A stretch of 64,000 nucleotides of DNA, taken from the NCBI GenBank assembly GCA_035539175.1, contig DATLIY010000008.1, positions 558,001-622,000 on the forward strand, written 5' to 3'. The translations under genes and the position numbers were made by a program. The notes under the pieces were generated by a model. The model was not told where the DNA came from, did not search any database, and worked only from the letters and a program-made list of their open reading frames with translations. This stretch comes from Acidisarcina sp. GTDB taxonomy: Bacteria > Acidobacteriota > Terriglobia > Terriglobales > Acidobacteriaceae. Shown piece by piece: positions 3,105 through 18,894 of the stretch; the stretch's first letter is position 1; the number at the start of each line of letters is the position of its first letter.

Positions 3105-4058
3105 TTAGAGAGGCATCCCTGCCGCTGGCAGAAAGCTGCGATAGCACAATGCCGGTTGTCCATCCTTGATATCCACTACAGGCATAGCCCGAAACTCCGC
3201 CGCTAGGCAGATCCTCTCCAGCGTTCCAGCTACAGGATGCGTAGACTCCTGTCCGCCCTTCATCGCCTGCAGACGCGGATAGTTGTAGAGAATGCGCTCG
3301 CCCTCCTCCCCATCCATGACGAAAAGTGCAGACCATTCCTGGAAGAATGTTCCGCCCTCGCGATCCATGAATCCGGCTACGGTCTGTACGCGCATCGCCG
3401 CAGATGGCGCACCAGCAAGGAGTGGCTCTTCAAGTTGAACGGAACCCGCTCCGACCGCGGCAACACGGGAGACGTTCAATGTCAGTCGCCGCACATAGTG
3501 AACATCGCCCTGCACTGCCGTTGCATTTCTGATGTACGCACACGAGGCGCCACTTCCCACATATCCCGTCTGCCCCGTGTAATCCACATCAACCGCAACT
3601 CTTTGTCCAACGCTGAACGTTGCTGCATCGGTAGAGCTCATCATTAACGTCGTTGCAGTCGACCCTGCGACTAGAGATACCGCGTTCGTGCCCGGAGGAG
3701 TAAGCAGATTCCAATGATCCGACCCTGCGGCCAGGGCCATCTGCAGCTTTCCCCAGTGCAGAAAGCGCAGCGATACCGAGGCGTCGATCTTTTGCCGTAC
3801 CTGTACCTTGCTGGCACCAGGCGCACCTGCAGCCAATGAGCCAATCTCGCTCGCCGACTTCCTGCTGAAGTTATCCACCCAGCCAAGATCTATCCATGGC
3901 GCCGGAGGATTTTCGAGATCGAATCTCCCGAACTGTGCAGCATCAAATGGAACCGGAGCAGGCAGCGTGCGGTCAACCGGCGCAAAATATGCCCGAATGC
4001 GACGAGTGATGGGCGCCGAAGCGTTTACAGCACAACCTTGAGTCGTTGCTGTGCTCAT
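3105..4058 (-). CDS. phage tail tube-like protein
   Basis: The protein has 317 residues. The chosen ATG at 4058 has a very strong AGGAGGAG site and overlaps the upstream gene by four bases (ATGA), so a longer frame reaching 4157 is rejected. The N-terminal region mentions a recurrent pattern (FAPVDRT, WIDLGWVDNF, KVQVRQKIDASVS) that I associate with tail-tube or major-tail proteins in Acidobacteriota prophages. The middle is beta-rich with a short internal domain (VGQRVAVDVDYTGQTG). Its place after the connector genes and before the baseplate gene fits a tail structural role. The exact identity is inference. Confidence 0.5.
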   Translation of the reverse strand: MSTATTQGCAVNASAPITRRIRAYFAPVDRTLPAPVPFDAAQFGRFDLENPPAPWIDLGWVDNFSRKSASEIGSLAAGAPGASKVQVRQKIDASVSLRFLHWGKLQMALAAGSDHWNLLTPPGTNAVSLVAGSTATTLMMSSTDAATFSVGQRVAVDVDYTGQTGYVGSGASCAYIRNATAVQGDVHYVRRLTLNVSRVAAVGAGSVQLEEPLLAGAPSAAMRVQTVAGFMDREGGTFFQEWSALFVMDGEEGERILYNYPRLQAMKGGQESTHPVAGTLERICLAAEFRAMPVVDIKDGQPALCYRSFLPAAGMPL

Positions 4059-4543
4059 TGCACTCCTCCTGCTTGCCGGGCTAGAACTGTGACCTTGACC
4101 ACGCGTTCCAGGGAATCGCGACTCATGGTCGTCGCGCCGAATACAGGTTCGGTCCACAAGACAGTCATTCCCGTAGCCGTCGCAGGGACCACGCTGTAAT
4201 TCATGACTGGTGCCGATAGCGGTCTAAGGATCTGCAGCAATTCCTCGTCCATGATCGCCAAGAGCCGTCCGCGATCCAGGCCGAGTGCCGCCTCGGTTCC
4301 CACCGTCCCATAGTGGATTTCGCATCCTAGGATTGCCATCGTTTGTGGCAACACCGGGTCCTTCTCCAGCACGGTCCATCGCAGCACAAAAACGTTCCGC
4401 GGCATCTTTGCTGCCACCGGCTCGGCGTCCTCTACCAGGATTCCTGGTCTCAGCGCTCCACGCACCATCATCGTGCGTTGGGGATTGACCACTGCCAATC
4501 TGTCCCGCAGCGCGATATAAAACGTGTCCTTCGCATCCAACAT
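4055..4543 (-). CDS. phage tail terminator/completion-like protein
   Basis: This 162-residue protein starts at ATG 4543 with a GAGGCGAAAG site; the open frame upstream to 4648 lies inside the preceding gene and is not used. It begins MLDAKDTFYIALRDRL and is a mixed alpha/beta protein without recognised catalytic residues. Size and position, between head-tail connector genes and the tail-tube gene, match tail terminator or minor tail completion proteins of siphophages. Its stop overlaps the start of the tail-tube gene by four bases, suggesting translational coupling. The function is inferred from synteny only. Confidence 0.45.
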   Translation of the reverse strand: MLDAKDTFYIALRDRLAVVNPQRTMMVRGALRPGILVEDAEPVAAKMPRNVFVLRWTVLEKDPVLPQTMAILGCEIHYGTVGTEAALGLDRGRLLAIMDEELLQILRPLSAPVMNYSVVPATATGMTVLWTEPVFGATTMSRDSLERVVKVTVLARQAGGVQ

Positions 4544-4556
4544 TCTTTCGCCTCGC

Positions 4557-5000
4557 TTATATCCCCTGCGCCTTCGGCAAGGCTTCGCGTAAAAGCAGCC
4601 TGTAGAGGTATATCCGCCCACACCACTCCGAGGCGGAGATAGATTCAATCAGAAATGTGTTCGTCCCCACCAGTATGGAGACCGCCTCGGCGAATAGAGC
4701 TTCCGCGGAGCCCAGTTGGGAAGCGCTGAGCTGCGCCTCCACGGCACATGCCGAGAGCAGCAGTTCCCACCTGTACTCCGAGCCCTCGACCATCGTTGCC
4801 CGCACGCGGCGAAATACGACAGGGCTAAGCACCAGATCTTGATAAGAACCGCTGTCTAGGCCCACTTGATCGCCGTCCGTGGCACACGGTGCGGTCGGCA
4901 ATCGCAGTAGAACTGAAGTGCCTCCAAGCGACCGTAACAGCGCATCCGCGGCTCGCTGTGCAGCCTCCGTTGGATTCCGTACACTTACATCCGCTCCCAT
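4557..5000 (-). CDS. phage head-tail joining region protein, unknown
   Basis: The protein has 147 residues and starts at the ATG at 5000, five bases after the connector stop codon, with a GGGG site upstream. An in-frame GTG at 5021 would overlap the connector and has a poor ribosome-binding site. No motif is recognised. The protein has an alpha-helical N-terminus (EAAQRAADALLRSL) followed by beta-rich sequence. Synteny with HK97-type phages suggests a head-tail joining or neck protein. I would not go further than phage structural. Confidence 0.45.
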   Translation of the reverse strand: MGADVSVRNPTEAAQRAADALLRSLGGTSVLLRLPTAPCATDGDQVGLDSGSYQDLVLSPVVFRRVRATMVEGSEYRWELLLSACAVEAQLSASQLGSAEALFAEAVSILVGTNTFLIESISASEWCGRIYLYRLLLREALPKAQGI

Positions 5001-5005
5001 ATCAG

Positions 5006-5632
5006 TTACCCCAACCGGCACGAAACATACGGCCGCAACAACGCCTTCACCTGCTCGTCAAGCAGCGTCGCTGCGAAGTAATCCATACGCATCGTGTCCA
5101 TCTTTGTCGATTTCACGTTGAGCGAAGGTGTCGCCTGCGCATTCTTTACAATCTGTGCGCACGCGCTCTGCACGGCACTGGGAATCACAGTCAGCCCCGC
5201 CGTATAAGTAACCTCCACTTCGTTGTATGGAAGCCCGAGAAGGTTATAAGGCAGCGTCACCTCACCCGTGTCGGCCACAAAGTCCAGCGTCGAGCTATCG
5301 AGCATCGTCCATGTTCCCGGAAGGGAAAATGCCCACGCAATCTCCGATCTCATCGGCTCTAGAACGATCTCTCCGCGTCTGGGCCGCGCATATCGGGCCC
5401 TTACCGTGATCCATGGTGAGGTTCCCGGTGCAACGACTGCCAGTGGAAGGTAACTCAGCCGAATACTTTGGCTTCCCTCCACGACGCGCAATCTCTCCAC
5501 ATACTGCGTCACACTCAGGCTGGTTCGCCGGCAGTGAGCATCCATCAATGCGGAAGCCGCCGTGATCCAGTCATCCGTCGTGTTCGGAGCCAATCCAAAA
5601 TTCTCGTAGTCCGTCGGCTGCAGATATCCCAT
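5006..5632 (-). CDS. phage head-tail connector (gp6-like)
   Basis: This 208-residue protein has the typical N-terminal helical pattern of gp6-type adaptor proteins (DDWITAASALMDAHC). A beta-rich segment follows and then a C-terminal helical region (QSACAQIVKNAQ) that normally packs into the dodecameric ring under the portal. It starts at ATG 5632 with an AAGGG site. It lies downstream of the capsid gene, separated by about 200 bases that contain a strong hairpin, and is followed within five bases by the next neck gene. The family assignment is by pattern and position. Confidence 0.6.
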   Translation of the reverse strand: MGYLQPTDYENFGLAPNTTDDWITAASALMDAHCRRTSLSVTQYVERLRVVEGSQSIRLSYLPLAVVAPGTSPWITVRARYARPRRGEIVLEPMRSEIAWAFSLPGTWTMLDSSTLDFVADTGEVTLPYNLLGLPYNEVEVTYTAGLTVIPSAVQSACAQIVKNAQATPSLNVKSTKMDTMRMDYFAATLLDEQVKALLRPYVSCRLG

Positions 5633-5834: not shown

Positions 5835-6803
5835 CTAGCGATCTACCAGAACCTGGTAGTGGGCATAGTTGGCGCCCTTCACCACAACGCCGCCAAACTT
5901 CACGACGACATACTGCGAAGCCAGCGATCCAGGTACTCCAAGCTGGAAGACGCGAGGAGAAGAATCGCTCAGCCAGTGATACTCAATCAGATCCTCCGTC
6001 ACAATGTAGGCAGGCAGCACCGCTGTTCCCGATCCCGGGGTACCGGAATAGCTCAGCGCCCATTCAGGAATGAGAGGCAGGTCGCCGGCCTGGGTCGAAA
6101 GCGTCTTGACCGTGAACCCTGCTCCAATTTCCTTCGAGTTCAGGACAACGTTGAACTCGCTCTTCATCTCACGGTCAATCAGATCCAGTAGTACCGGATT
6201 GGCATAGATCGCTGTGGGGCGAACCGCAAAGCCGCTGTTGGAGACCATCTGCGCAACCGTGGACTTCAAGCCATCTACAATGCTTTGTGTCGTGCCGATC
6301 GTCGTCGTATTCCCACCGGCAGCAATCTGCGCCGACGCGCCGTAATACTGGGTCGACGTCGGAGTGCTCAACGATGTGTCTGCGCCATTCCACAGTGCAA
6401 CGTCGTGCGTGCGCATCACGCCATCGATGGTGTCCACCAGGTCCTTCGCCTGCAGATAGGCAAACTGCTTCTGCTGCGTTCCGAGCTCAATGTCAAACAG
6501 GTTGTAATTCAGCTGCGCCACAAGCGCCTTCAATGGAACGCTACGTTCCACGCGCGTTGGGCTTACAACCGGAGCGACAATGTTCCGTGGATCTACAAAT
6601 CCGGATGTGCTGGGAGATGGAATCCCAATCTCTTCGAAGAAGCGCGAGGGATGGCCCGTCGCCGGCACTTGCTTGATGCGCTGCCCGAACAATCCGCGGC
6701 GGCGAACAATATCCGTGATCTCAGTCTGGTACAACGGCAGTTCGATGGCGCCAGGTCCAATGAAGTCAGCAGCGGAATGGATGTCGAGAAAATTTGCGGT
6801 CAT
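5835..6803 (-). CDS. phage major capsid protein
   Basis: The protein has 322 residues, starting at ATG 6803 (MTANFLDIHSAADF). A longer open frame to 6926 has no supporting ribosome-binding site. The length, the N-terminal region with GPGAIELPLYQTEITD, the central helix-rich segment (VDTIDGVMRTHDVALWNG) and the C-terminal beta tongue (QYVVVKFGGVVV) match the single-chain HK97-fold capsid proteins that follow protease and scaffold genes. It probably forms the shell as pentamers and hexamers. It is the best candidate for the most highly expressed gene of the operon, which may explain the hairpin downstream. Confidence 0.65.
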   Translation of the reverse strand: MTANFLDIHSAADFIGPGAIELPLYQTEITDIVRRRGLFGQRIKQVPATGHPSRFFEEIGIPSPSTSGFVDPRNIVAPVVSPTRVERSVPLKALVAQLNYNLFDIELGTQQKQFAYLQAKDLVDTIDGVMRTHDVALWNGADTSLSTPTSTQYYGASAQIAAGGNTTTIGTTQSIVDGLKSTVAQMVSNSGFAVRPTAIYANPVLLDLIDREMKSEFNVVLNSKEIGAGFTVKTLSTQAGDLPLIPEWALSYSGTPGSGTAVLPAYIVTEDLIEYHWLSDSSPRVFQLGVPGSLASQYVVVKFGGVVVKGANYAHYQVLVDR

Positions 6804-6967
6804 AATTTCTTTCTGCCTGCTCCCAGGCGGTAGTTCCGTGGTTCGTGGATTCTCAGGAGGAGCAATTGCCCATCCTGAAAAAACGACAGTACACTCCCCC
6901 ATAAATCGTTCGCAGTTCTCAGGCAACTTGCCAGAGCACTCTACTTCTTTAGGAGGAGCTCCAGGTG

Positions 6968-7408
6968 TTAGCGCAGCGAGCCAGCGCGAAGAAGCTGTGC
7001 CTTCACCGCGATTCGCTGCTCCAGGCTCAAGCCCGCAAGTGCAGCGTCCAGTGAGCCGGCTTCCACTCGATCCAGATCCTCAAGACCCTGCTTGCTCAGC
7101 AACTGCACCGTGGCAGCAGGCAGAGTCTTACGCGCTGCGGAGGTCTTCACCTCGCGCTGAGCCGCTTGTGCCCTCAACTCGGCAATCTCTTCTTCCGCCG
7201 CCATCAGCTTTTGCTCCAGCTCTTGCTCTCTGCGGCTGCCCTCGTTGTTCTGCTCAACGGTTGCCACAATCTTCTGCACATCTCCAGCCAACGCGGCGCG
7301 TCCCTGTTCCAGCAATGCCACTGTCTTCTCCAGCAGTGTTGCAGCAGCCTCCAGCCGTTCCAGGCTGCCCGCTTCCGAGTCCAATACTTCCCGATTGTCT
7401 AATTCCAT
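6968..7408 (-). CDS. capsid scaffold-like coiled-coil protein
   Basis: This 146-residue protein is strongly charged, glutamate-, alanine- and leucine-rich, and predicted to be a long coiled coil between residues of about 15 and 100 (for example EQELEQKLMAAEEEI). A short helical C-terminus follows. Length and composition fit phage scaffolding proteins, which direct capsid assembly and are then removed by the prohead protease. It lies between the protease and the capsid genes, the usual place. The start ATG has a GGAAGGACA site; its first codons overlap the 3' end of the protease frame by 10 bases. Confidence 0.55.
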   Translation of the reverse strand: MELDNREVLDSEAGSLERLEAAATLLEKTVALLEQGRAALAGDVQKIVATVEQNNEGSRREQELEQKLMAAEEEIAELRAQAAQREVKTSAARKTLPAATVQLLSKQGLEDLDRVEAGSLDAALAGLSLEQRIAVKAQLLRAGSLR

Positions 7409-8010
7409 AAGTGTCCTTCCCTTTCTCTCACCGTCTCACCCATTCCCGTTGAGGAACCGTATGCCGAGCATCGTGCCGCCAACCGCACCGGCCGTCGCGT
7501 CATCGACCGGCACTGCGTTAAGCGAAACGATGTACTGCGATAAGCCGCCTTATCCCGCAACAGAATCGCCGCACCTGTAAAGGTGGCCTTGCTTAGCCTC
7601 CAAACCTCGGCTCGCATATCTTCCACGTGCGCATCCGCCAGTTCGTAGGACATCCCCATCGTCCCTTCCTGGCCGCGAGTCATCTGCTCCTCCACTTCCG
7701 GAAAATCTCTTCCGAAGAGATAACCGCTCACGCGCAACTCATTTCCTTCGACGTTTGCTTCGGTGATAATTCCGCATTTCCTCCGCGCATCGTGTCCATC
7801 CCAACCCGGCCGATAGTCCACTGCCATTCCCAGCAGGGAGGGCAATGCCGCCATCGCTGCCGCACGTGTTAACAGCACACGATGGCCTCTCGCCCCCGAA
7901 GGAGCCTTGTCGCTGGCTACATCCACCAGCGTCAACACGCCTTCAAAGGGAATCCGGTTTGGATGGCCCGCGACTGCAGGAATCTTTAATGCCATTGCTT
8001 CAAGTCTCAT
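7399..8010 (-). CDS. prohead protease-like protein
   Basis: The protein has 203 residues, starting at ATG 8010 behind a GGGAGAG site. Its core (IPFEGVLTLVD, DYRPGWDGHDARRKCG, VSGYLFGRDFPEV, GTMGMSYELAD, KATFTGAAILLRDKAAY) matches phage maturation-protease-like proteins, which cleave the scaffold and capsid during head assembly. The catalytic residues are not assigned with confidence. The last 45 residues look non-native (arginine-rich, SMTRRPVRLAARC). Shifting frame near 7535 would give a more typical tail with NAVPVDD and ending at 7436, so a frameshift or sequencing error is possible. Confidence 0.55.
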   Translation of the reverse strand: MRLEAMALKIPAVAGHPNRIPFEGVLTLVDVASDKAPSGARGHRVLLTRAAAMAALPSLLGMAVDYRPGWDGHDARRKCGIITEANVEGNELRVSGYLFGRDFPEVEEQMTRGQEGTMGMSYELADAHVEDMRAEVWRLSKATFTGAAILLRDKAAYRSTSFRLTQCRSMTRRPVRLAARCSAYGSSTGMGETVREREGHLWN

Positions 8011-8035
8011 TCACTCTCCCACTCGCGTTCTGCTT

Positions 8036-9295
8036 CTACTGCTCACCCCGCGACTCGCCCGCAATCCCATCTTGTTGAGTCGTTGGCAACGGCCCCAACC
8101 CTCGCATCGATCGCACCTCATCGACCGTCAGAACGCCCGCCTTCAGCAATGAAGTTTGTATCTGTACTTCCGTCATCTCGTCGCGTGCATCCAGTTCGTT
8201 GAAGACGAACTCAAATTCCCGCCAACCGAGCCTCTTGGCCAACACATCCCGGGTCAGGTGCTCCGCCAGCAGTTTTGCCAGCGGTGCAATTGCACTGCGA
8301 AACGCCTCGTTCCCTTGCTCTGCGGCTGTCGAGCGATTCACGTCGTGCTCCAGCCCCAGCATCATCGGCGGCAAACCAAATGCATTCGCCACCAATCGCA
8401 TCAGGAACTCCTGCCAGTTCAGCCGCAGGTCTGCATCCGTGCCGGAGCTGAAGCGCAATACCTCCGGCTTCTGCTCCGAGCTCAACAGCGGAACCCGACC
8501 CGTACCCTCGATCTCATCCTGCCACCAGCGGATCAGCCGTTCATGCTGTGCCGGAGTCGTCTCGTTCAACCACAGCGCATACTGCACCACGGAGTTGCTG
8601 GCCAGCTTCGAGGCAAAACGGTTCGCGCTCAAAAACGCGTTCACTGTTTCAAATGCAACTTCCAGCGGGCCCAGGCCAAATGGTGTATGCGTCCGAGGAT
8701 TCATTCGCAGATAGATCAGCTCATCATCACGCAGCGAAATCAGCCCGTCCGTCCCCATGCGGCCTGTCATCTGCGCATAGCGCGGTGTCTCCTGCGTGCC
8801 ATCCCATTTGGGATTAATACGGATCGTCGCGCCATCCACCGGCCACAATGCAAACGGCCGCTCCCCATCGCCCGTCAGGTCGATTTCGATAGCCCCAAAC
8901 CCGCCCACCAGCGCGTCTTCCAGCACCTGCTCCACCAGCGTGCGGAAGGAGTCGCTGTCGTTCGGTTCTTCTAGCGCCCTGCGGATCGCCGCCATGCGCG
9001 CATCCAGGTCTGCAACCTCTGCCGGCACGTAACCGCGCTTCACCTTGATCTGCCAATCCAGACTGGCAATGCGATCCTTGATCACGTTGATCGCGCGCCG
9101 CACTACCGGCGTCTCCGCAAATTTGCGCAGATTCGCTGGCGTCGGCTTTGGCATCAGGTTGGTAGAGGATGGGTGTGGCGACAAGATCGACGGCAGCATC
9201 AGCGTCTTGCGCTGTCCTTCCGTCTTCTGGCCTTCCCCGGCTTCCACGCCACTCAGACGCTTCCACGCACTTCGTATCGGTTCCATCAGCTTCAA
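8036..9295 (-). CDS. phage portal protein
   Basis: The protein is homologous to Phage_portal family proteins: an N-terminal region with TPVVRRAINVIKDRIASLDW, a clip and stem region, WQEFLMRLVANAFGLPPMML, and a C-terminal helical wing ending near VDEVRSMRGLGP. The portal forms the dodecameric DNA channel at one capsid vertex. The open frame extends to an ATG at 9394. That ATG lies inside the transcription terminator of the upstream gene, so I place the start at the TTG at 9295, which has an AGGGG site eight bases upstream. ATG 9286 is the alternative. That gives about 419 residues, normal for the family. Confidence 0.8.
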   Translation of the reverse strand: MKLMEPIRSAWKRLSGVEAGEGQKTEGQRKTLMLPSILSPHPSSTNLMPKPTPANLRKFAETPVVRRAINVIKDRIASLDWQIKVKRGYVPAEVADLDARMAAIRRALEEPNDSDSFRTLVEQVLEDALVGGFGAIEIDLTGDGERPFALWPVDGATIRINPKWDGTQETPRYAQMTGRMGTDGLISLRDDELIYLRMNPRTHTPFGLGPLEVAFETVNAFLSANRFASKLASNSVVQYALWLNETTPAQHERLIRWWQDEIEGTGRVPLLSSEQKPEVLRFSSGTDADLRLNWQEFLMRLVANAFGLPPMMLGLEHDVNRSTAAEQGNEAFRSAIAPLAKLLAEHLTRDVLAKRLGWREFEFVFNELDARDEMTEVQIQTSLLKAGVLTVDEVRSMRGLGPLPTTQQDGIAGESRGEQ

Positions 9296-9363
9296 TGTGC
9301 TCGCCCCTTTTTCCTGATTCCAAAATTCATTCAATGCCGCCACTGCTTCCGCCACCCTGGCCC

Positions 9364-9398
9364 AAAAAACAAAAGGCATGGCGTTGATCGCCATGCCT
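9364..9398 (-). terminator. Rho-independent terminator after DUF3037 gene
   Basis: On the leftward strand a perfect 10-bp stem (AGGCATGGCG with a five-base ATCAA loop) is followed by a T-rich run with ten T among eleven bases. It lies 24 bases after the stop of the DUF3037 gene and just before the portal gene. This isolates the HipA-like/DUF3037 pair from the phage structural genes, as is typical of a moron cassette. Confidence 0.8.
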
Positions 9399-9421
9399 CT
9401 CGAATCCTGCTCCGCTCTAGC

Positions 9422-10246
9422 TCAAACCCGCAGCTCTCTCCGTGCCGTCTCTGCCACCCGCACCAGGTCGCTCGTCGTCAGAACTCGAATTGTCTGCTGC
9501 TCCATCGTCTCTACCGCAAATCGGTATTGCGATATCCGGTCCTCGTCCTCGCTCGCGCCCTTGATCTCTGCCAGAGGCTCAATAATCGCGGTCAATTCCA
9601 GCTTCGCCTGTTCCACCCGCGCGACTCCCTCCACCAGCGCCGGCGCGCTGAACGCCAGCACCTTCGCCATCTCCGCGTCGCTCTCGAGCGAGACTGCGTG
9701 AAACATCTTCACCACGCCGTTCGGCCTGTACCCGCAATCAATCCGCATAGGATCGCCCGGCTTCGTATAATCCGAGGCCGCGATCCGCTTGCGCATTAGG
9801 TCCCACACGCCCACCCTGTCAAACTGGTTGCGCATCCGATTCAGCAGCGCGCCCCGCCCGCTTCTACGCACCTCGCGCTGCCGCTTCTGCGGATCGACAT
9901 AAAGCTGCATCAACTGCTCCAGCTCCGCAGGAATCGACTCCGCCAGGCATCCTTTCGCCTCGGTCATCTGCACCGCGTTTGAGAAGGAGTCCTCAATCAC
10001 CTGCATCACCGTCTTCGTTCCATCTGCCGCCTCAGCCAGCCTGCGCCGTACCTCTACCTCAAGCGCCTCCAGCATGGCCGTATCCGCATCCGGATCGATG
10101 CAGCGCACTCGCTGCCAGTCGCGCGTAAAACGCACCTCGGTATGCCCGGCTTCCCGTAGCATCACTCCGATGTTCACAAACTCGTTCTTCACAGCATCCG
10201 GAACGTACCGGATCAGGAAGAACTCGCATTGCCTGCGTCCTACCAC
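9422..10246 (-). CDS. DUF3037 domain protein
   Basis: The N-terminal motif CEFFLIRYVPDAVKNEF followed by VNIGVML is the signature of DUF3037 proteins. I start it at the GTG at 10246, which has an AAGGGG site and matches the usual N-terminus; an in-frame TTG lies at 10279. The protein has 274 residues, with a conserved N-terminal domain of about 110 residues and a helical C-terminal half. The biochemical role of the family is unknown to me. It directly follows a HipA-like kinase gene on the same strand, and from memory these two families often travel together. The pair is followed by a dedicated terminator and sits between terminase and portal genes. Confidence 0.75.
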   Translation of the reverse strand: MVGRRQCEFFLIRYVPDAVKNEFVNIGVMLREAGHTEVRFTRDWQRVRCIDPDADTAMLEALEVEVRRRLAEAADGTKTVMQVIEDSFSNAVQMTEAKGCLAESIPAELEQLMQLYVDPQKRQREVRRSGRGALLNRMRNQFDRVGVWDLMRKRIAASDYTKPGDPMRIDCGYRPNGVVKMFHAVSLESDAEMAKVLAFSAPALVEGVARVEQAKLELTAIIEPLAEIKGASEDEDRISQYRFAVETMEQQTIRVLTTSDLVRVAETARRELRV

Positions 10247-10330
10247 TCGCGCCCCTTCTCGCCCAATCTGCAAAATCAACCGAATTCTACTTCTTCTATC
10301 GGCAGCTCCCGCTCGTCCCGCACCCGCGTC

Positions 10331-11209
10331 CTACATCATCCACTTCGGGCCTTCCGTATCCTGTACCTGCTTCGGGTCCGGAAACCCACCTTTCACCAGC
10401 TTTTCTTTTGGCCGCATCCAATTTGGAAATGGCTTCCGCGAAGATTCCCGAAACATATCAATATGCTCCCGCACCCGCAGCCTGCGCTCCAGCAGTTGCT
10501 CTACCAACTGCTCCAGCTCCGCCGTATCGCCGCCGTACCACTCTGGAGGAACCGCCTCCGCAATCGCCCAGGCCTTCTCCGGTGCAAACGTCTCAATGCG
10601 GCTCAGCCAGGGTTCAAAGCTCTCCCATCCAACCACGTCCCTGTATACCGGATTGCGGGCATACACACCCCGCAGCGGAGCATCCACAAACTTCCATTCC
10701 CCTGCGTGAAAGCAGTACCCCTGGTCAATAAAGGTCGCCGCATACCGCCGCTCCCGCGGCTTCTTCACAAATACCGCCTGGCGCCCATTTACGTTGCAGG
10801 TCCACTTGTCCAGCGCCAGCATGCCGGCAAATTCCTTCAGGTTCCGCGTCTCCAGCAGCATCTCCTCCGGCAAGTAATCCACTACCTGCCCGGGCATCAG
10901 CCCACCCACAAAGCGCGATCCAAACTGCAAGCCGCCCCTGCACCTCTCCTGCGATCGCCCCAGGTCCATCTTCAGCTCCGACGTATGGTCGATCAGCCAG
11001 TCGGTCACCTCGACCACCTCGCACGGCGGCACCGTCAACCCCACCGCCTCTGCCAGCCTCGTGGCCAGAAACTCGTTTGCCAGCACGCGCACATGCTGCG
11101 GATTGTTCTGGAACTTCACCACGTACAGGTTCGTGTCTGCGCCCAGCATCAGATGACTCTGTGCTCCCCCCCGCATCCGCCGAATCTCCTGCACTACCAG
11201 CACTGCCAA
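10331..11209 (-). CDS. HipA-like protein kinase
   Basis: The 292-residue protein resembles the HipA family kinase domain. The conserved RRMRGGAQSHL near the N-terminus would be the glycine-rich nucleotide loop, and VVKFQNN at residues 30-36 carries the likely ATP-contacting lysine (K32). LALDKWTCNVN supplies a catalytic-loop aspartate and asparagine (D134, N139), and FIDQG a metal-binding aspartate (D162). All key residues appear intact, so an active Ser/Thr kinase is likely. The start is uncertain: TTG 11209 is used because the motif RRMRGG is preceded by conserved residues, and ATG 11176 has a better ribosome-binding site but would cut these off. No HipB-like antitoxin is present; the partner is DUF3037. 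It is inserted within the phage head gene cluster. Confidence 0.75.
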   Translation of the reverse strand: MAVLVVQEIRRMRGGAQSHLMLGADTNLYVVKFQNNPQHVRVLANEFLATRLAEAVGLTVPPCEVVEVTDWLIDHTSELKMDLGRSQERCRGGLQFGSRFVGGLMPGQVVDYLPEEMLLETRNLKEFAGMLALDKWTCNVNGRQAVFVKKPRERRYAATFIDQGYCFHAGEWKFVDAPLRGVYARNPVYRDVVGWESFEPWLSRIETFAPEKAWAIAEAVPPEWYGGDTAELEQLVEQLLERRLRVREHIDMFRESSRKPFPNWMRPKEKLVKGGFPDPKQVQDTEGPKWMM

Positions 11210-11339
11210 ATCCGTCGTTCCCCTTCTTAAGGTCTATCCTCAAATTCTATCCTGCGAACCTGCCCGCCCCACTACCTTCGGCCACCGCCTTCCACACCGT
11301 GCGCGGCCAGTGGAGGAATGCCACATTAGCTGGTCGTCA

Positions 11340-11612
11340 CACTGTGCGATCCTGAGCGTCACTCTGTGACCCTGATCGTTCCTGTGTCGTCTCGAGACTT
11401 ACTTTGTCTTCCCGAGCGTTGCTTGTCGCTTCGAACGTCCTTGCAGTCTCGAACGCACCTTGCAAGTCTCGAACGTTCCTTACAAGTCTCGAACGTTCCT
11501 TGCAGCCTCGAGCATTCCTTTGTGACCCTGAGAGTTACTTTGTCGTCTCGAGAGTTCCTGCGTCGTCTTGAGACTTACTTTGTCATCCTGAGCGAAGCGA
11601 AGGACCTGCTTT
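11340..11612. repeat. 13-unit 20-bp tandem array ending in dispersed repeat copy
   Basis: Between the HipA-like gene and the terminase gene there are 13 consecutive degenerate units of 18-20 bases starting at 11340, 11360, 11380, 11400, 11420, 11439, 11457, 11477, 11497, 11516, 11536, 11556 and 11576. The unit pattern is close to TACTTTGTCGTCTCGAGAGT. The last unit is the intact first half of a 34-base dispersed element (11579-11612) also present at 39600, 44925/44973 and 60799/60946. The array therefore looks like expansion of half of that element. The stretch 11210-11339 has no recognisable feature. Confidence 0.85.
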
Positions 11613-13110
11613 CCCCGCCTTCCAGCAACTCCGCTCGCACGCCCATCGCGATCGCCATCGCCATCACGCAATCATCGTGCTCTCCCGCCCGCGCCCCAGT
11701 CTTCCCATTGGCATGGCGAACAAAGCTGCAGCACTCCTCGAGCAACCGCCGGCTCTGGAAGATCTCCGGCTCCTCAACCAGGGCGCTTCCAATCCTTGCC
11801 AACGCTGCCGGCCGGGAAACCGACGTGGTCAGCCATCCATGCTGCCCGCCTTGCATATAAAGCCTCTCATAGCGGCAGACACTTCCCAGGTAAGCAAGCA
11901 CCCCCGAACCATGATTGTTCCTCTCTACTGCCAGCAGTGCCTGGTTATACTCCTTCGCCAGGGCCGTAGCCTCTCGTGCCAACTCCAGCGTATCCAACTT
12001 CGCTCTCAATTCGGCACACTGCAGTCCTGTCTCCAACTCCACCACCTGTACAGCGGAGTAGTCCCCCTCAGCGCCACCTCCCGCAGGGTCCGCCGCCACA
12101 ATGTAGCTCCGGCCCGGCACCGGCGGATACCAGATCTGCAGCGCTCCGCCCAGCCTCGTCGATATGGCATCCGCCGCATCCCGAATCCTGCCGGCAATAG
12201 CATCCGCATCAAAGACGCAGGCGCCGCTGGCCAGAAAGCATTCCTCCGCATCCTCCGCAAATTCCTGCTTCGCCAAAATATCGAAGTCAGCCCTGAGCTT
12301 GCGGCGAAACCCGATCTGCTCCAGGCTAAGACCGTTCCGCTCGCGCACCGCCACTTCCTCGGCGGTCAGCGTATGTTCTGCAACCGCCTCGGTTACATAG
12401 GCACTCTCCCACCACCAGGGGAAAAAGTGCCGCACCGTTCCCGTCTCGCCTGCCCGGCGCCATTCGTTAAAGAAGCACCCCGAAGCCCCCTTCGGCGTAG
12501 ACTCCAGCACGATCTCTCCATCAGGAGGCATCGCGGCCCGTAGCCCGGCCAAAGTCTCTCCGGCATTCCCCGGCCAGCGAGCGACCTCCGAGCAGTGCAG
12601 ATTCTGGATCGTAATCCCCCGCCCAGCATTTGTATCCCCGGCACTCTCCACGCGGTACTCGCTGTCGAGCGCAGGAAAGATCATCTGCCGCGCGCTCGAC
12701 CGCGATGTCCGCAGCGCGCCCTGCCGCAACCCTTCTGGAAGATACTCCCAAAAACGGTGCACCATGCGGAAGAGATCTTCCGCCGCTTCCTGCGTATGCG
12801 CGACCTCTACCGTCAACGTCCCCGGCTTTGTAATCGTCTTCAGAAAAAAGCGGCCGGCAACCCACGTGCTGATGCCCATCTGCCTGGCCTTCAGCACAAT
12901 GTTTCGCCGCCCGCGTCTTCTTTCAAACTCCCTCTGCACCCGGTTCGGAACGAACGCCACGCACTGTCCGCGCCGATCCCGAACCTTCAGCAGTGCCTCC
13001 GCCAAAAACATCCCCGTCGTTTGTTCCTTGAGTGTGGCCAGCCTCTCGTCCAGCACCACCCCCAGGCCGCACAGTTCTCCCAGATCCCCCGGCACATCCT
13101 GGGCCTTCAT
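11575..13110 (-). CDS. phage terminase large subunit
   Basis: The 511-residue protein is the DNA-packaging motor. The ATPase half has a Walker A-like KARQMGIST at residues 74-82 and the coupling motif ESTPKG. The nuclease half has DPAGGGAEGDYSAVQVV with a metal-binding aspartate and ends with HDDCVMAMAIA, another conserved acidic motif. The start ATG 13110 has a GGAGAAGAG site. The final 13 residues (GESRSFASLRMTK) are encoded by the dispersed repeat, so the original stop codon was probably replaced when the repeat inserted at the 3' end. The conserved domains are complete, and function is probably unaffected. Confidence 0.85.
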   Translation of the reverse strand: MKAQDVPGDLGELCGLGVVLDERLATLKEQTTGMFLAEALLKVRDRRGQCVAFVPNRVQREFERRRGRRNIVLKARQMGISTWVAGRFFLKTITKPGTLTVEVAHTQEAAEDLFRMVHRFWEYLPEGLRQGALRTSRSSARQMIFPALDSEYRVESAGDTNAGRGITIQNLHCSEVARWPGNAGETLAGLRAAMPPDGEIVLESTPKGASGCFFNEWRRAGETGTVRHFFPWWWESAYVTEAVAEHTLTAEEVAVRERNGLSLEQIGFRRKLRADFDILAKQEFAEDAEECFLASGACVFDADAIAGRIRDAADAISTRLGGALQIWYPPVPGRSYIVAADPAGGGAEGDYSAVQVVELETGLQCAELRAKLDTLELAREATALAKEYNQALLAVERNNHGSGVLAYLGSVCRYERLYMQGGQHGWLTTSVSRPAALARIGSALVEEPEIFQSRRLLEECCSFVRHANGKTGARAGEHDDCVMAMAIAMGVRAELLEGGESRSFASLRMTK

Positions 13111-13181: not shown

Positions 13182-16100
13182 CTATTCGTTTGCGACTCCC
13201 GCATTCCCAGCGACCCACTTCGAGAGCGCACTTACATAGGAGAAGCTCTGCGAACTGCATGTCGATGCTGTCGCGCCGATGGTCATCCCACCCCGAACAT
13301 TCGCAGGCCACGCAAACGTGTGTCCGCCAACTGAGTCCTGGCACACAACAAACGTCATGCTCTGGCCGCTGGCGCCTGCTCCAATTGTGGAAGAGGTGAC
13401 GTTCCCTGTCAGCAACAGATAGTTCACGCTTCCCGTTGACGAGAAGGTTGGAGTTGCCGAGTAACTTATATCCGCCTCTGCAAATAAACCCGATACCTGC
13501 GAAGGGCTGGCCAGCGTCAGGTTCGCCACCGGGGTAGTAGAGGTCACCGAGATAGGAGCGGTTCCCGTGGCAACATTGGAGATCAACGTATTCGTATGCC
13601 AGTTCCCGCTTAAATCCCCACCGTACACCCCGCCAAAGGACAGAGGATACGTAGGGCTGCCCGGTCCAAAGTTACACCCCGTTGAGGTGCATAGCTCCTG
13701 CAATGCGTTGTTAATCAGCAGGGAGTAAGGGATGGTTGAAATCGCTGCACCAAAGCTGTGCGTCGTTGCAGTCGTGCCCAACAAACCTCTGGACAAGTTA
13801 TCCAAAGAGACGCTGTAATCGCCACGGCAATGCACCGATCCCCACGAGATTACCTCGCTATCGATAACTGCCTGTCCAGGTACACCAAATGCCGGCTGAG
13901 TATAATTCACAGGAACCGAATTAGGGTTGCACGTACTTGTCAAAGGAATACCGTCCGTTGACAACGAAGTGGAGCCTAGATTCGTGTTGATGGTCGAGGC
14001 TACCGAAGTCCCGACCTGACTCGACGTGCTCACAGTCTTGGCAACAACATTGTCCACATTTGCTGTCGTTACATTGATCGAGTCCCACTTAGGCGAGAAC
14101 ACGATAGGACCTAAAGAAATACCCGAACCATTCGCTGTCCCCTGAGAACTGATATTTACGCCCCCATTGGTGTTAAACCATCCTCTACCGTTGATGGTTG
14201 TGTCATAAGGAACGGCACACACCGACCATGATGGAGTCAGGTTGCAGGTCGTGGTTGTTCCCAGGTTGAGCGACCACCCTTGCGTTGTCGGGCCATAATC
14301 GGCCTTCAACGTAAGGTACATCGTGCCCTTCCCATAGTTGATCCGCTGATTCAGCGGCACACCGCTATCCTGCAGCCACCCTCCTCCTTGCCATCCGCAG
14401 CATTGGCCGTGATACGGAATATGCAGCGCCTTCCCTCGTCCGAGCGGCACTGTGGCATCGGAGTAGATGCTTCCATTCACACCCCGCGGGCTTCCCAGGG
14501 TGCTCATCAAGTCTTCTGGTTCAATCTTCATATCCACCAGGGAGTTGAACCAGTCATTGTTAATGTTGCCCATCAGGAAAGCATCCGGCCGCGACTGACC
14601 CACGTTCTCGATCTGTGCTATACCATTCAGCTTGCGATAGCCTGCATTTGCCGTGGCGATACCTGTTACCGTGTTGTCCTTGCCGTAATCGGCAGCCGGA
14701 GCAGTGGCCAGGTTATTCGCAAACGATGAATCCGTCAGGATGACATTCCCAAGAAACTGTCCTTTGCTGTCCGCCGTCGAGGTGTCTAGATAGAACGGCT
14801 GCTGCGTGAACCAGCTAGGTCCAAGGATCGTTTCCGCATTGCTGGTCATCCCGTTATGCAGAATCCCTGCAGGATAAAACGGATTGATGTGCCAGCCTGT
14901 GCCTAAGTTGAATTCTCCACTGACGCCCTTCAGCTTCAGGTCGCTGCCCGTTACGTATCCTGCTTCGTCCGTCACAAGACCATCGCTGGGCTGCCGAGAT
15001 TCTGAAAACGGCTGGTCCACGTTATTGATGGTGTTCGGCCCGCTCTCGATATTCATCTCATCGATAATCTGCGGTCCGGCGATAGAGAACCAGGGCACTG
15101 GCGTATCCACCATACCGTTGGTGAACTTGTTATAGGGGCTGGTATTCGTCCATCCGGCGGCGCCGTTGTAGGCTTGCGCCGCGTCGTTCACGCCGGCCAT
15201 AGCCCATACAATGCCGTAGTTCGTGTGCCAGATGTGATAGTTCTTCACAGATACCGAGTAAGGCCAGCTCTGGTAGAAAATGCTGCAGGAGCTTGTGCTG
15301 TTTGAGGATGATCCGAGAAACTCAATATTTTCCAGGTCCGGATTTCCCAACGTCGGGTTGGTAACCAGCGCACCCGCCGGCGAACCATCGGAGTAATGGA
15401 AGGCCAGCCCGCAGTTGCCAATGTTCCATGCAGGAATAACTCCGTTGTGTTTCCCGTTCTGTGTTGGAGTCGTGAAAGTAAAAGGATTGACGGCATTGAT
15501 GACCGCATTGGAAGCGTGAGCCACAGCAGTTGTCGAAGTCTGCCCGCGCTTCACTCCGAGATAGACAAGGAAGTATTTCGTCGGAGTCGTTCCCGGAATA
15601 ATGAACGGTATGCCATCCGTATAGGTCGCATACTCGTTCGAGGCTGTTCCGTAGTCTATGCCGATCGCCCCAATCACCTCGCCGTATCCGCCAAAGTCCG
15701 CGTAGCCTAGCGGCGTGTTGGCTGGATTATCCGTGATGGCGATTGTTGTTTGGCTGGCAGCAATACCGTCCACCACGTTGACGACTGCCCCGGGATCATG
15801 CGCTTGTGCAGTGGCCGTCGTGGTAATGGTGTTGCCCGAAATGGCGCTGTAGTTGATACGCTCCGAATCAATCAGCAGCGTTCCAGAAGCAGGGAAGCCA
15901 ATCGGCGCGTAAGCCAGCGTAATCGATGTAGAGCCCGCAGCGGCAGTCGCCCCAAGCACTCCAGGAAGATAACTGGAGTAGACAACAGTCTCCCCTGCCG
16001 AATTTCCACCTATCCCGTTATGTGCAACCGCAGTGGTTGCATATAGTCCCCGGGTCAGCCCCGTAAGGGTATTCCCGCTGATCCCGGTATAGCTGACAAA

Positions 16101-17786
16101 CTCGCCACCTAGCTGGATGACTCCAGAGGTAGGAAGCCCCGCAATGCTGGCCAGTGTAATCGAGGTATCGGTTGCTCCAATGTTTGCAGTGGGCCAGGTG
16201 CGCAGCGTACTCGCCGGAGCATGAGAGATAGAGCTGACCCACGGCTTGTTTGCCCACGCCGATCCCTGCCCGGAAAAGGACAGATCGCCCAGGTAGTGCA
16301 CAGGAGCACCCGCCGCGTGTGCCACCGCAACCGTGCCACCATATCCGCGATCTACCGCGTTACTGGTCGTGATCGTGTTGCCACTTACTGTCGTGTAGTG
16401 AATCAATTCCTGATCCACCAGCACGAAACCCGCGCGACGGTAATACTGCGTCGAGCCAACGGTCAGAGAAGTATCCGTGGCTCCAATCGCATTCGTCAGC
16501 GTGGTGTAAAGCTGTGTCACGTCCACACTGGTATCCACCTGCAAGGTGAGATCCTGAATCTTGCCCTTGGTCACGATGCCCTGCCAACCGCAAATGCCAT
16601 TGCCTCCGCCACCCGGCAATCCGTCTGTTGTTCGGTCGTTCGGGTCCATATTGCTGATGATGTCCTGCCCTGGGCCACCAACCAATACAGAGAGTCCTGT
16701 TCCCACGCCTTTTAGATACTGACAGGTGTAGGGCAATGGCTTCGAGGTATAGCACTTCCCAGCCGGAAACTTCAGGCCAAAGGGCTTGTAGGGATTGATC
16801 GCGGCAACGAACGCATCATGCAGCGCTTGGTAATTGTCCGTCCCTGTGCTGCCGTTGAAATCGCACTTCACGCCCCAGTCAGTGACCGACCGGTACTCCA
16901 TGACTCGCAAATCAATTACGGGTATGCCGTATGGATTCGTGAAAGTGTCGGTGCCCGCATAATTCGCAGGGATCTCCACCGCACCTGTAGCTCCCGCCGC
17001 ATTGATCGCCTGCTGAAGTGTGGTTCCCTCTGGAAAGTATTTCCCATTCACCACAGGAGTCGTCAAAGGCCCCGTCATCGTGTCTCCCGCCTTGGAGACA
17101 GAAGCAGACGATGCGCGGTCGACATATTCCTTTGTGGCTGCGTCGTAGTTCCCGACAGGATCGTTGGCTAGCGTCAGCGATCCTTTCATCGTGCCTCCTG
17201 TCATTGGCAGCAGCGCGGAGGCTGCTTGATCCACATAGTGCTTCGACGCTGCCTGCTGAACGGTAATTGGATCGCTGTTCAGCAACAGAGGCCCCGTCAT
17301 TGTGCCGCCGCTCGAAGGTACAAAACCTGTAGTTACGCCGGCAATCGAGGTATCCACATACTGCTTCGTGACTGCCTGCACCGCCATTGCTACTGGCATC
17401 ACCTTCGCGCGCACCGACGCCAGGCTGACTGTCGCAGCAGAGGGAACAACCCAGTACTCGGTGCTTGTCGTCCCATCATTCAGATGGTAGACGGCCGTAT
17501 AGTACGTTCCATCCGGAGCAGCTCCGGCATTGGGAGCGAGACCAATCGCCACCCATCCGTCAGCTCCAATCGGGATTGATTTACTGCCCGATGCCACTGC
17601 CTCATTTGCACTCGTCGTAAATGCGGGCCAGCTCAGCAGCAGCGTCCCCTGTGCCACGCTTCCATCCGCGCGATACACCGTACCCTGCACCGTATCCGTT
17701 GCCACCGCCAAAGCCCTCTGAGGCAAAAAAGCTAACAGTATTCCCAGCCACGCAACAACTCCCGGCAACCTCTTCACAAATGTCAT
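13182..17786 (-). CDS. giant secreted tail-fibre/pectate-lyase-like protein
   Basis: The 1534-residue protein begins with a clear Sec signal peptide (LGILLAFLPQRALAVA). Three tail-fibre-type repeats follow at about residues 135-245 (GGTMTGPLLL and KHYVDQA patterns). Next is a pectate-lyase-superfamily-like start of a right-handed beta-helix at about 295 (YRSVTDWGVKCDFNG). At least five copies of a 55-75 residue module occur near 430, 530, 612, 675 and 1285 (pattern GATDTSxTL, a Glu-hydrophobic-Tyr site, SGNTxT, RGxxGTTAxAH). The last 90 residues form a beta-rich C-terminal domain. It overlaps the upstream gene by four bases (ATGA), so it is expressed with the phage genes, yet the signal peptide points to export of the protein itself. 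It may be a receptor-binding or surface-degrading protein; the function is not established. Confidence 0.6.
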   Translation of the reverse strand: MTFVKRLPGVVAWLGILLAFLPQRALAVATDTVQGTVYRADGSVAQGTLLLSWPAFTTSANEAVASGSKSIPIGADGWVAIGLAPNAGAAPDGTYYTAVYHLNDGTTSTEYWVVPSAATVSLASVRAKVMPVAMAVQAVTKQYVDTSIAGVTTGFVPSSGGTMTGPLLLNSDPITVQQAASKHYVDQAASALLPMTGGTMKGSLTLANDPVGNYDAATKEYVDRASSASVSKAGDTMTGPLTTPVVNGKYFPEGTTLQQAINAAGATGAVEIPANYAGTDTFTNPYGIPVIDLRVMEYRSVTDWGVKCDFNGSTGTDNYQALHDAFVAAINPYKPFGLKFPAGKCYTSKPLPYTCQYLKGVGTGLSVLVGGPGQDIISNMDPNDRTTDGLPGGGGNGICGWQGIVTKGKIQDLTLQVDTSVDVTQLYTTLTNAIGATDTSLTVGSTQYYRRAGFVLVDQELIHYTTVSGNTITTSNAVDRGYGGTVAVAHAAGAPVHYLGDLSFSGQGSAWANKPWVSSISHAPASTLRTWPTANIGATDTSITLASIAGLPTSGVIQLGGEFVSYTGISGNTLTGLTRGLYATTAVAHNGIGGNSAGETVVYSSYLPGVLGATAAAGSTSITLAYAPIGFPASGTLLIDSERINYSAISGNTITTTATAQAHDPGAVVNVVDGIAASQTTIAITDNPANTPLGYADFGGYGEVIGAIGIDYGTASNEYATYTDGIPFIIPGTTPTKYFLVYLGVKRGQTSTTAVAHASNAVINAVNPFTFTTPTQNGKHNGVIPAWNIGNCGLAFHYSDGSPAGALVTNPTLGNPDLENIEFLGSSSNSTSSCSIFYQSWPYSVSVKNYHIWHTNYGIVWAMAGVNDAAQAYNGAAGWTNTSPYNKFTNGMVDTPVPWFSIAGPQIIDEMNIESGPNTINNVDQPFSESRQPSDGLVTDEAGYVTGSDLKLKGVSGEFNLGTGWHINPFYPAGILHNGMTSNAETILGPSWFTQQPFYLDTSTADSKGQFLGNVILTDSSFANNLATAPAADYGKDNTVTGIATANAGYRKLNGIAQIENVGQSRPDAFLMGNINNDWFNSLVDMKIEPEDLMSTLGSPRGVNGSIYSDATVPLGRGKALHIPYHGQCCGWQGGGWLQDSGVPLNQRINYGKGTMYLTLKADYGPTTQGWSLNLGTTTTCNLTPSWSVCAVPYDTTINGRGWFNTNGGVNISSQGTANGSGISLGPIVFSPKWDSINVTTANVDNVVAKTVSTSSQVGTSVASTINTNLGSTSLSTDGIPLTSTCNPNSVPVNYTQPAFGVPGQAVIDSEVISWGSVHCRGDYSVSLDNLSRGLLGTTATTHSFGAAISTIPYSLLINNALQELCTSTGCNFGPGSPTYPLSFGGVYGGDLSGNWHTNTLISNVATGTAPISVTSTTPVANLTLASPSQVSGLFAEADISYSATPTFSSTGSVNYLLLTGNVTSSTIGAGASGQSMTFVVCQDSVGGHTFAWPANVRGGMTIGATASTCSSQSFSYVSALSKWVAGNAGVANE

Positions 17787-18241
17787 GCTTCATCCTCACT
17801 CCGCGTATCAGCGGCTTTCGGTCCGTGTTGCTGCGCCTGCGTCTCCTGATCCTTCGGATCTTCGACTTCAGTCTCCATATCGTTGCGCTTGGCGAGTTCT
17901 TTCATCAGCATCTCTGCCAGGCTTACATGCCGTTGTTTCTTCCCACGGCTCGTCCGTTCATCCTTCACGCCGGCCATCTCAATCAGAAACTTCGTGTGTG
18001 TCAGGCTCCCATGTTTCGCTCGCTCGATCGACGAATCCACAATTTCCGGAAATGCCTCCGATAGCTCCTTCTTTGTATGAGCCTTGTAGTTTCTAATTCG
18101 TTTCTTCGGCGTAGGTGGATTTGTACTCTTCTTCGTTGCGCCGGTCTTCTTTGCTCTCGACTTCAAGCTAGCTTCTCGTAGTTCGTCTTCCACCGGACCC
18201 GTTACTGCATTCCCGCTTTTCTTCTTCTGCACTGGCATCAT
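17783..18241 (-). CDS. small basic/acidic protein, possible small terminase position
   Basis: The protein has 152 residues if started at the first of two tandem ATGs at 18241. The N-terminal 60 residues are rich in lysine and arginine (VQKKKSGN, KKRIRNYKAHTKKELSE), and the C-terminus is strongly acidic and glutamine-rich. The middle (FPEIVDSSIERAKHGSLTHTKFLIEMAG) is helical. It lies upstream of the terminase large subunit, separated by the giant fibre gene, so a DNA-binding small-terminase role is possible but unproven. No ribosome-binding site is visible: the ATG directly follows the T-tract of a terminator hairpin. Its start and expression mode are therefore unclear. Confidence 0.5.
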   Translation of the reverse strand: MMPVQKKKSGNAVTGPVEDELREASLKSRAKKTGATKKSTNPPTPKKRIRNYKAHTKKELSEAFPEIVDSSIERAKHGSLTHTKFLIEMAGVKDERTSRGKKQRHVSLAEMLMKELAKRNDMETEVEDPKDQETQAQQHGPKAADTRSEDEA

Positions 18242-18242
18242 C

Positions 18243-18281
18243 AAAAAAGGCAAGAGGGACGCCGATCGCGTCCCCCTTGCC
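18243..18281 (-). terminator. terminator/attenuator hairpin with T6 tail
   Basis: The arms 18249-18262 and 18268-18281 pair over 13 positions with one internal mismatch around a five-base loop, and on the leftward strand the stem is followed by six T. This is a strong intrinsic terminator for the transcript carrying the zinc-ribbon and sigma-like genes. The T-tract ends one base before the ATG of the next gene, so late genes need either readthrough (antitermination) or a promoter inside or after this site. Confidence 0.8.
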
Positions 18282-18369: not shown

Positions 18370-18894
18370 TCAGCCTCTTGGCCGCCTCCCATTCTTCGCT
18401 GCATCTTGACACGAATCCATTCCTGGAATCGTCAGCAGCTTCACACTCAGGAAAATTGCCGTAAGCCTGTCCAGCGCTTCGCCATATTTCCTCACTACGG
18501 AACGTAGACTCATGCCCATCAGTGCTGCCGCTTCGCCCTGCGTGTATTCTTGCAGCGCGATCCGTGCGATCAGCCCTTGGTGTACCTGGTCCAGGCGTTT
18601 CAAGCACTTCTCGATGTCGAAGACAAAGATCACCGCGTCTTCAAAACTCCGTACCCGGTAGCTCGACACGCGTCCCCGGAACATGCACTCGCCTAGAACC
18701 GACGGCACCCTGCCCATCTGCATCGACATGTGCATATACCTTCGTAAGAGAGATTGTGTGTGCTTGCGATAAAACGCGAGTTCTTCTGCCGGCCATTCTT
18801 CCTGCTCGCGCTTAAGGACACGCTGTCCTGGCGATGCTATAGGCTGCTTCTCACTCTCGCTCCACACGCAGGGCAGCACCAGCGCAGCGCTCAT
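18370..18894 (-). CDS. sigma-70 region 4-like phage regulator
   Basis: The protein has 174 residues from ATG 18894, which has a perfect GGAGGTG site and overlaps the zinc-ribbon gene by four bases. Its centre to C-terminus (residues of about 92-150: FDIEKCLKRLDQ, YTQGEAAALMGMSLRSVVRKY, EALDRLT) has the spacing of a sigma-factor region 4 helix-turn-helix. Such short sigma-like proteins occur in early regions of prophages and are thought to switch on late genes. Here it precedes the terminator and the late operon, consistent with that role. No sigma region 2 is recognised, so it may act with the host RNA polymerase in a different way. Confidence 0.6.
   Translation of the reverse strand: MSAALVLPCVWSESEKQPIASPGQRVLKREQEEWPAEELAFYRKHTQSLLRRYMHMSMQMGRVPSVLGECMFRGRVSSYRVRSFEDAVIFVFDIEKCLKRLDQVHQGLIARIALQEYTQGEAAALMGMSLRSVVRKYGEALDRLTAIFLSVKLLTIPGMDSCQDAAKNGRRPRG

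Follow-up and report, generated by a model that had tools for sequence, protein, structure and literature searches.

A HipA-like kinase and DUF3037 gene pair resident in a probable gene transfer agent-like cluster of Acidobacteriaceae

The DNA considered here is a window of 64,000 nucleotides from an Acidisarcina sp. assembly (GCA_035539175.1, contig DATLIY010000008.1, positions 558,001 to 622,000 of the forward strand), in which a gene for a HipA-like kinase and a gene for a DUF3037 protein lie among phage-type head genes; all coordinates are those of the window. On the minus strand the order is terminase, kinase, DUF3037, portal, and Pfam backs all four assignments, confirming an earlier sequence-only reading that had placed the pair between terminase and portal. 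The pair and its immediate surroundings comprise:

11575..13110, minus strand: terminase large subunit (PF17289, E 2e-5; phrog_2)
11340..11592 (11340-11379 and 11431-11592), no strand: 20-bp tandem repeats of a dispersed genomic repeat (Tandem Repeats Finder), between the terminase stop and the kinase start
10331..11209, minus strand: HipA-like kinase (HipA_2), 292 amino acids (aa), TTG start, between terminase and the DUF3037 gene
9422..10279, minus strand: DUF3037 protein, presumed antitoxin, 285 aa; the true start may lie slightly downstream
9370..9402, minus strand: intrinsic terminator-like hairpin in the DUF3037-portal interval, 14 pairs (9402-9370) followed by a TTTTTTGGGC T-run
8036..9394, minus strand: portal protein (PF04860, E 8e-57), its start probably downstream of the hairpin

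The kinase, the DUF3037 protein and their known relatives

Residues 9-102 of the kinase match PF20613 HipA_2 (E 5e-11), and the protein also matches PF07804 HipA_C (E 4e-6, under that model's cut-off) and the PADLOC model PDC-M66A (E 1e-7, 29 bits). In an alignment of 80 kinases, which includes that of the window and excludes a broken copy at locus L102, Lys32, Asp134 and Asp162 are identical throughout and Asn139 is kept in 79; motif spacing fits roles for K32 as the ATP lysine, D134 as the catalytic aspartate, N139 as the metal asparagine and D162 as a DFG-like aspartate, so the earlier statement that the catalytic residues are intact holds. The predicted structure (confidence score pLDDT 86.5) is matched in Foldseek by PI4K2A, CtkA, Fam20, Shewanella HipA (E 1e-4) and Legionella HipT (E 3e-3); in a sequence search of solved structures the kinase profile found no match at E 1.

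The DUF3037 protein matches PF11236 (E 8e-22) and PADLOC PDC-M66B (E 1e-11). Its predicted model (pLDDT 82; predicted template-modelling score, pTM, 0.53) returned nothing from Foldseek at E <0.001, and its profile gave chance-level matches only among solved structures (best E 0.075). The VIA-align fold list, which covers residues 136-285, includes PD-(D/E)XK nucleases, with Z 9.0 for PspGI and 8.7 for BstEII over 127-134 aligned residues, close to the background of Z 7-8, a resemblance of the C-terminal half that is suggestive only. By eye the protein has no clear E-x-K, which we take to be the nuclease motif, and this half may therefore be a non-catalytic relative of the nucleases.

Pairwise ratios of non-synonymous to synonymous substitution rates (dN/dS), computed among 18 locus pairs tried wherever dS was computable, are 0.05-0.23 for the kinase and 0.035-0.28 for DUF3037, with one outlier of 0.69 that is a 52-codon fragment; on these ratios both genes are under purifying selection. 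Among 50,697 records of sequenced phages the kinase has one partial match only, at 29.8%, and DUF3037 has none.

The same two domains stand adjacent in the systems named HipAD, DS-6 and PADLOC PDC-M66, and both PDC-M66 models match the window pair, the kinase at only 29 bits. Two reports describe a HipA kinase with DUF3037 as an anti-phage, toxin-antitoxin-like pair (PMC12548924, PMC13092281): in the Retron-Sda1 pair deletion of HipA abolishes defence and deletion of DUF3037 is toxic (PMC12548924), and DS-6/HipAD defence is lost upon catalytic mutation of the kinase (PMC13092281). The suggestion that DUF3037 is the partner of the kinase agrees with these reports and with the PDC-M66A/B matches. 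DS-6B is described in PMC13092281 as having DUF1829 too, for which the window pair has no Pfam match; unlike HipAD and PDC-M66 elsewhere, the window pair sits in a vertically inherited, phage-derived cluster. With HipBA and HipBST the window kinase shares a predicted fold, Shewanella HipA and Legionella HipT being among its Foldseek matches, but it differs from them in having neither HipB nor HipS adjacent, its partner being DUF3037 and the outer neighbours of the pair terminase and portal. The earlier remark that no HipB-like antitoxin is present is thus right beside the pair and needs qualifying further off, where a Cro/C1-type helix-turn-helix (HTH) gene at the right border of the cluster, about 8 kb away, has a very weak match to HipB (16.5 bits against a cut-off of 79).

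Residence of the pair, with and without the cluster

Sixty loci, retrieved through their terminase or capsid rather than their kinase, have terminase and portal in view; in 59 of them terminase, kinase, DUF3037 and portal follow in that order, the exception being L046 in the complete genome G032. In the named-genome set (the best 80 of 207, overlapping the 60 loci) both neighbours are in view in 38 loci and the pair is present in all 38; of 41 viral-contig loci, 23 show both neighbours and the pair is present in 20 of those 23. Nested among pair-bearing loci in the portal tree, the four without the pair (L046, L268, L271 and L275) are read as losses; five distant phage-like contigs, the outgroup of that tree, also lack the pair. 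Trees and profiles exclude contig-edge fragments, and the kinase tree also excludes L136. Across 250 genomes of the class the capsid gene occurs in 47, comprising 45 of this family and two of family f7; both f7 genomes carry the pair beside the portal, G278 in the same order and G260 with the terminase apart. The pair therefore probably entered before the two families parted, unless the cluster later moved between them. The sequence-only reading had seen here the form of a moron, a passenger inserted in the phage head genes; the comparison of neighbours and of pairless relatives that it proposed has been made and speaks for a resident, found in 59/60 loci, in 38/38 named-genome loci and beside the portal in both second-family clusters, with four pairless clusters besides.

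The terminator was tied to the pair in the earlier reading, which called it strong and dedicated. Strong it is; dedicated to the pair it is not. A scan with strict criteria places a terminator in the DUF3037-portal interval of 29/58 loci against 0.2 expected, none between terminase and kinase (0/59) and none between kinase and DUF3037 (0/48). Upstream of the portal it is retained in 2/4 pairless loci, and after DUF3037 it is found in none of seven loci without a portal following the pair, namely the five pair-only loci described below, L303 (a 7-kb contig) and L304 (genome G139, where another contig bears a portal and a fragment of a kinase). The hairpin thus goes with the portal side: it marks, as these comparisons indicate, the start of the portal unit and is not part of the pair, and a private terminator is ruled out. 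Nor is the interval unique, since the capsid-adaptor interval also has terminators (17/56, strict scan). A looser scan gives 27/59 for DUF3037-portal (1.0 expected) and 2/59 for terminase-kinase (1.7 expected); working with other thresholds than the strict scan, it missed the hairpin of L275, whose stem it extended into the T-run, and found a 7-pair hairpin in pairless L268 that the strict scan does not. The earlier reading would have given way had related elements always carried the pair within the head operon and under shared transcription: nearly all do carry it, and shared transcription is not what the interval suggests, because a terminator often separates pair from portal.

The 20-bp repeats upstream of the kinase are there as described; that they bound an element is ruled out. 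A 15-base word of the array occurs in 33 copies in the genome against none in a reversed control, and the corresponding interval of the sister genome is 126 bases long and has no array. Further copies of the GTCATCCTGAGC repeat stand in the window at 39490-39619, 44927-44986 and 60817-60959; the window as a whole has nine copies at no more than one mismatch against 0.54 expected. Foreign composition is not seen either: the pair resembles the terminase in GC content at third codon positions (GC3 0.75 against 0.72). At four loci (L095, L101, L110 and L116) the gaps around the pair hold extra small genes, so that the interval accepts inserts; by eye we take these genes to be RAYT-like, GIY-YIG-like and 23S-IVP-like. 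The window has no tRNA gene, and positions 1-22000 have no Rfam match.

Pairs are also found where the cluster is gone. In genomes G151, G171, G074, G082 and G136, from four genera, the pair adjoins purE/purK or the E2 gene at the ancestral site (loci L119, L120, L121, L302 and L306). Nothing else of the cluster is in view at these loci, and searches of the five genomes found neither capsid nor terminase nor portal anywhere. As these loci were found through kinase matches they yield no rate. Their kinases group among cluster kinases in a tree with several weak forks, and between G151 and G171 dN/dS is 0.048 for the kinase and 0.035 for DUF3037. A tally from match lists serves as a wider control: of the 62 capsid-negative genomes among 150 in the family, 24 still have a strong kinase match (E <1e-50), four a terminase match (two of them fragments) and three a cluster-type portal, the 24 including kinase copies elsewhere in a genome and genomes in which contig ends interrupt the cluster. 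That pairs persist after loss of the cluster indicates, as far as gene content can, that the pair is of use, or difficult to lose, on its own; its unvarying position in the cluster suggests that it is harmless there and may have a part in it. Other genomes go against this: G374 lost the capsid and retains terminase, pair and portal, and in G078 and G131 DUF3037 stands alone beside purK with the kinase elsewhere.

The head-tail cluster, its site and its inheritance

Around the pair lies a head-tail cluster (698-18921) that looks like a gene transfer agent (GTA)-like element of the family, one we found undescribed as such. Its remaining genes, with the regulator at its right border, are:

19638..20348, plus strand: Cro/C1-type HTH gene, right border (PF13443, 0.009); candidate cluster regulator
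18370..18921, minus strand: first cluster gene; weak sigma/HTH match (PF04545, 0.0045); present in most relatives
17783..18253, minus strand: cluster gene, 156 aa; matched in only part of the relatives
13182..17786, minus strand: tail protein, 1534 aa, mostly poorly conserved (phrog_3639, 1e-4)
7399..8010, minus strand: conserved cluster gene, 203 aa; no Pfam or PHROG family
6968..7408, minus strand: conserved cluster gene, 146 aa; no Pfam or PHROG family
5835..6926, minus strand: presumed major capsid protein, from position and conservation (69-90% identity across genera); no family match
5006..5632, minus strand: head-tail adaptor (phrog_442, 3e-15; adaptor gp8 of PDB 9lw9, E 0.005)
4557..5021, minus strand: conserved cluster gene
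4055..4648, minus strand: conserved cluster gene
3105..4157, minus strand: conserved cluster gene, possible tail protein (phrog_476 at E 0.16 only)
698..3010, minus strand: conserved last cluster gene, 770 aa, tape-measure-like by position only; no family

Several features recall RcGTA: head-tail genes, no integrase or replication gene in the scanned part of the cluster, a fixed site, a single copy and co-variation with the host. So do the portal, whose best of three PDB matches is the RcGTA portal Rcc01684 (E 9e-6), and the 1534-aa tail protein, which matches PF23666 Rcc01698_C of RcGTA below threshold (4e-4; 21.1 bits under a 27-bit cut-off); the capsid profile found no sequence match among solved structures at E 1. 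Unlike RcGTA, this cluster has the 1534-aa tail gene upstream of the terminase and a kinase pair aboard, and it is known from genes alone. What the window holds is a caudovirus-like structural cluster fixed in a host genome, which is one criterion of a GTA; the attributes of GTAs, including those that depend on particles, are set out in PMC9662315.

The capsid gene is present in 88 of 150 family genomes, one copy in each. Counting loci with at least 1.5 kb in view beyond the cluster, the left border is formed by the same housekeeping genes in 13/14 (the exception is L051), these being purE, purK and pyruvate dehydrogenase genes that lie outside the window, and the right border by the HTH gene in 25/29 (exceptions L048, L053, L054 and L057). 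That gene diverges from the start of the cluster, whose first gene is at most 3 kb away in the same 25 of 29 loci, and is a candidate for the cluster repressor. One shared site is not what independent prophage insertions would produce. Protein distances of terminase, kinase, DUF3037, portal and capsid correlate with those of host Obg at r 0.54-0.65, a level reached in none of 2000 permutations; a host-host control, E2 against Obg, gives r 0.74 in eight genomes, and E2 against the five cluster proteins gives r 0.34 (terminase) to 0.86 (DUF3037) in seven to eight genomes. Site and distance correlation together fit a cluster that is mostly vertically inherited and co-varies with its hosts, and it is probably a fixed-site, GTA-like, host-domesticated element.

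Two loci of the acidobacterial 'prophage cluster 153' (T. roseus NC_018014, 150-180 kb, and KBS 89 scaffold 5, 60-90 kb) coincide with L198 and L199 of our set; L198, from the soil bacterium Terriglobus roseus DSM 18391, shows the complete arrangement. Eichorst et al. (2018; PMC5900883) treated cluster 153 as prophages, most of them predicted to be active, and their main text never mentions 'HipA'; KBS 146 is given no prophage there, yet its genome carries this cluster (L209).

Some loci depart from the common plan or lie beyond it. In L044, L108 and L109 (genus g34) the capsid block lies on the far side of the 1534-aa-type gene, with terminase, kinase, DUF3037 and portal kept together. A capsid relative at 69% identity (L272:10001-11011, also L276 and L277) occurs on viral-labelled contigs of 74-214 kb with no other cluster gene in view, in L272 among genes for DNA ligase, polynucleotide kinase and nucleotidyltransferase. 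Two public records whose labels read Verrucomicrobia and Rhodanobacteraceae (L218 and L248) also have this acidobacterial cluster and are probably misbinned contigs.

What the pair may do, and for whom

On balance, and with modest confidence, we favour the reading that the pair is a module of HipAD/PDC-M66 type, an old resident of a fixed-site, GTA-like, host-domesticated cluster, serving the host by itself. Its observed part is content, position, single copy, host correlation, purifying selection, active site and the pairs left behind. The module would have joined a head-tail cluster of phage origin at an early date, probably ahead of the split between two families of the class, and would have been passed on with that cluster ever since. 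DUF3037 would bind the kinase and restrain it; phage infection, or an unscheduled start of the cluster, would disturb that restraint, and the freed kinase would phosphorylate a host target and bring growth to arrest, an arrested infected cell giving no phage. The cluster would supply a stable site and perhaps, because terminators are absent from the terminase-kinase interval in the strict scan but often precede the portal, transcription that reaches the pair from the terminase. By homology, the kinase may be a toxin held by DUF3037 and released on infection, and the growth or anti-phage role that the sequence-only reading had entertained fits the published work on the same domain pair.

One must nevertheless consider what counts against this reading. 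At E 0.001 Pfam has no model for the C-terminal half of the kinase, the PADLOC matches of the pair are modest at 29 and 43 bits, and many dS values exceed 1 and are saturated. One of the 59 pair-bearing loci, L102, has its kinase broken into two frames (it was counted as pair present, and its kinase does not enter the trees or profiles); some clusters have no pair (G032 with L046, L268, L271 and L275); and in G366 the pair was lost along with half of the cluster. The correlation with the host marker, a comparison of distances, is moderate. Finally, a kinase without DUF3037 is found in 6/14 genomes searched (G012, G028, G029, G102, G138 and G117, the last at 76% completeness), so that the kinase is either not always lethal alone or has another partner; such kinases, with no neighbouring DUF3037, stand at L122, L123, L124, L127, L129, L130, L132, L134 and L135, and those of G012, G028, G029, G102 and G138 keep the active-site residues.

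Unlikely, in our estimate, is that the pair is instead a control element of the particle programme, with the kinase, for example, halting growth or translation in cells that start the cluster and DUF3037, with its nuclease-like fold, acting as sensor or brake. The same place between terminase and portal in 59/60 loci, the same order in G278 of another family, the intact four-gene block in the otherwise reshuffled L044, L108 and L109 and a terminase-kinase interval all but free of terminators (0/59 strict; 2/59 looser, 1.7 expected) all suit such a role. However, pairless clusters (G032, L268, L271, L275) and cluster-less pairs (L119, L120, L121, L302, L306) indicate that neither needs the other, in G260 the terminase is separated from the pair and the portal, the terminase, the kinase and the portal of G009 are each on a contig of their own, and linked inheritance alone could preserve gene order.

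Less probable again is a selfish addiction module guarding its own locus, in which free kinase would punish loss of the pair and the pair would outlive the cluster. The skewed survival in the 62 capsid-negative genomes (kinase in 24, terminase in 4, cluster-type portal in 3) is what it would produce, and the pair-only loci of four genera require flanking losses on both sides that spared the pair; yet the cluster is not protected by the pair, losses of the pair do occur, kinases without DUF3037 exist, and the kinase count takes in copies at other sites and contig-cut clusters.

A recent moron (passenger gene pair) of an active prophage, to which the interval of its own, the strong terminator and the repeat array had pointed, is very improbable given the same place across genera and in a second family, a single-copy fixed-site cluster, the terminator retained in 2/4 pairless loci, the array missing from the sister genome, the terminase-like composition, and a site that is neither empty in most relatives, as that of a phage moron would be (pair absent in 1/60 genome loci and 3/23 viral-contig loci), nor furnished with a terminator of the pair's own (strict scan); recent acquisition is refuted, which leaves early acquisition alone to a moron.

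A bolder proposal, which we rate as rather unlikely, is that an undescribed GTA of Acidobacteria, spread across one family and reaching a second, carries a HipA-kinase/DUF3037 switch, the kinase arresting cells at the start of the agent or at phage takeover of packaging genes and DUF3037, with its nuclease-like fold, being the releasing sensor. If that were true it would be, to our knowledge, the first known GTA with a built-in growth-arrest immune module. In a literature search conducted largely without full texts, no report was found of a GTA in Acidobacteriota or of a GTA with HipA; in a recent peat-moss virome study, shared phage-like contigs match Acidobacteriaceae genomes and GTAs are named as a possible fate of such regions (PMC12142844).

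Returning to the favoured reading of an old resident serving its host, the domain pair is already known, being of HipAD type, and what is new is its setting, as a lasting tenant of a GTA-like cluster. The cluster gives Acidobacteriota, a major phylum of soils, a probable GTA-like element, and two of its loci had been recorded as prophages (PMC5900883). An anti-phage toxin-antitoxin pair would thus be a lasting tenant inside packaging genes long kept by a bacterial family, and natural deletions in both directions, cluster without pair and pair without cluster, make that family a testbed for asking whether such a pair serves the host, the cluster or itself.

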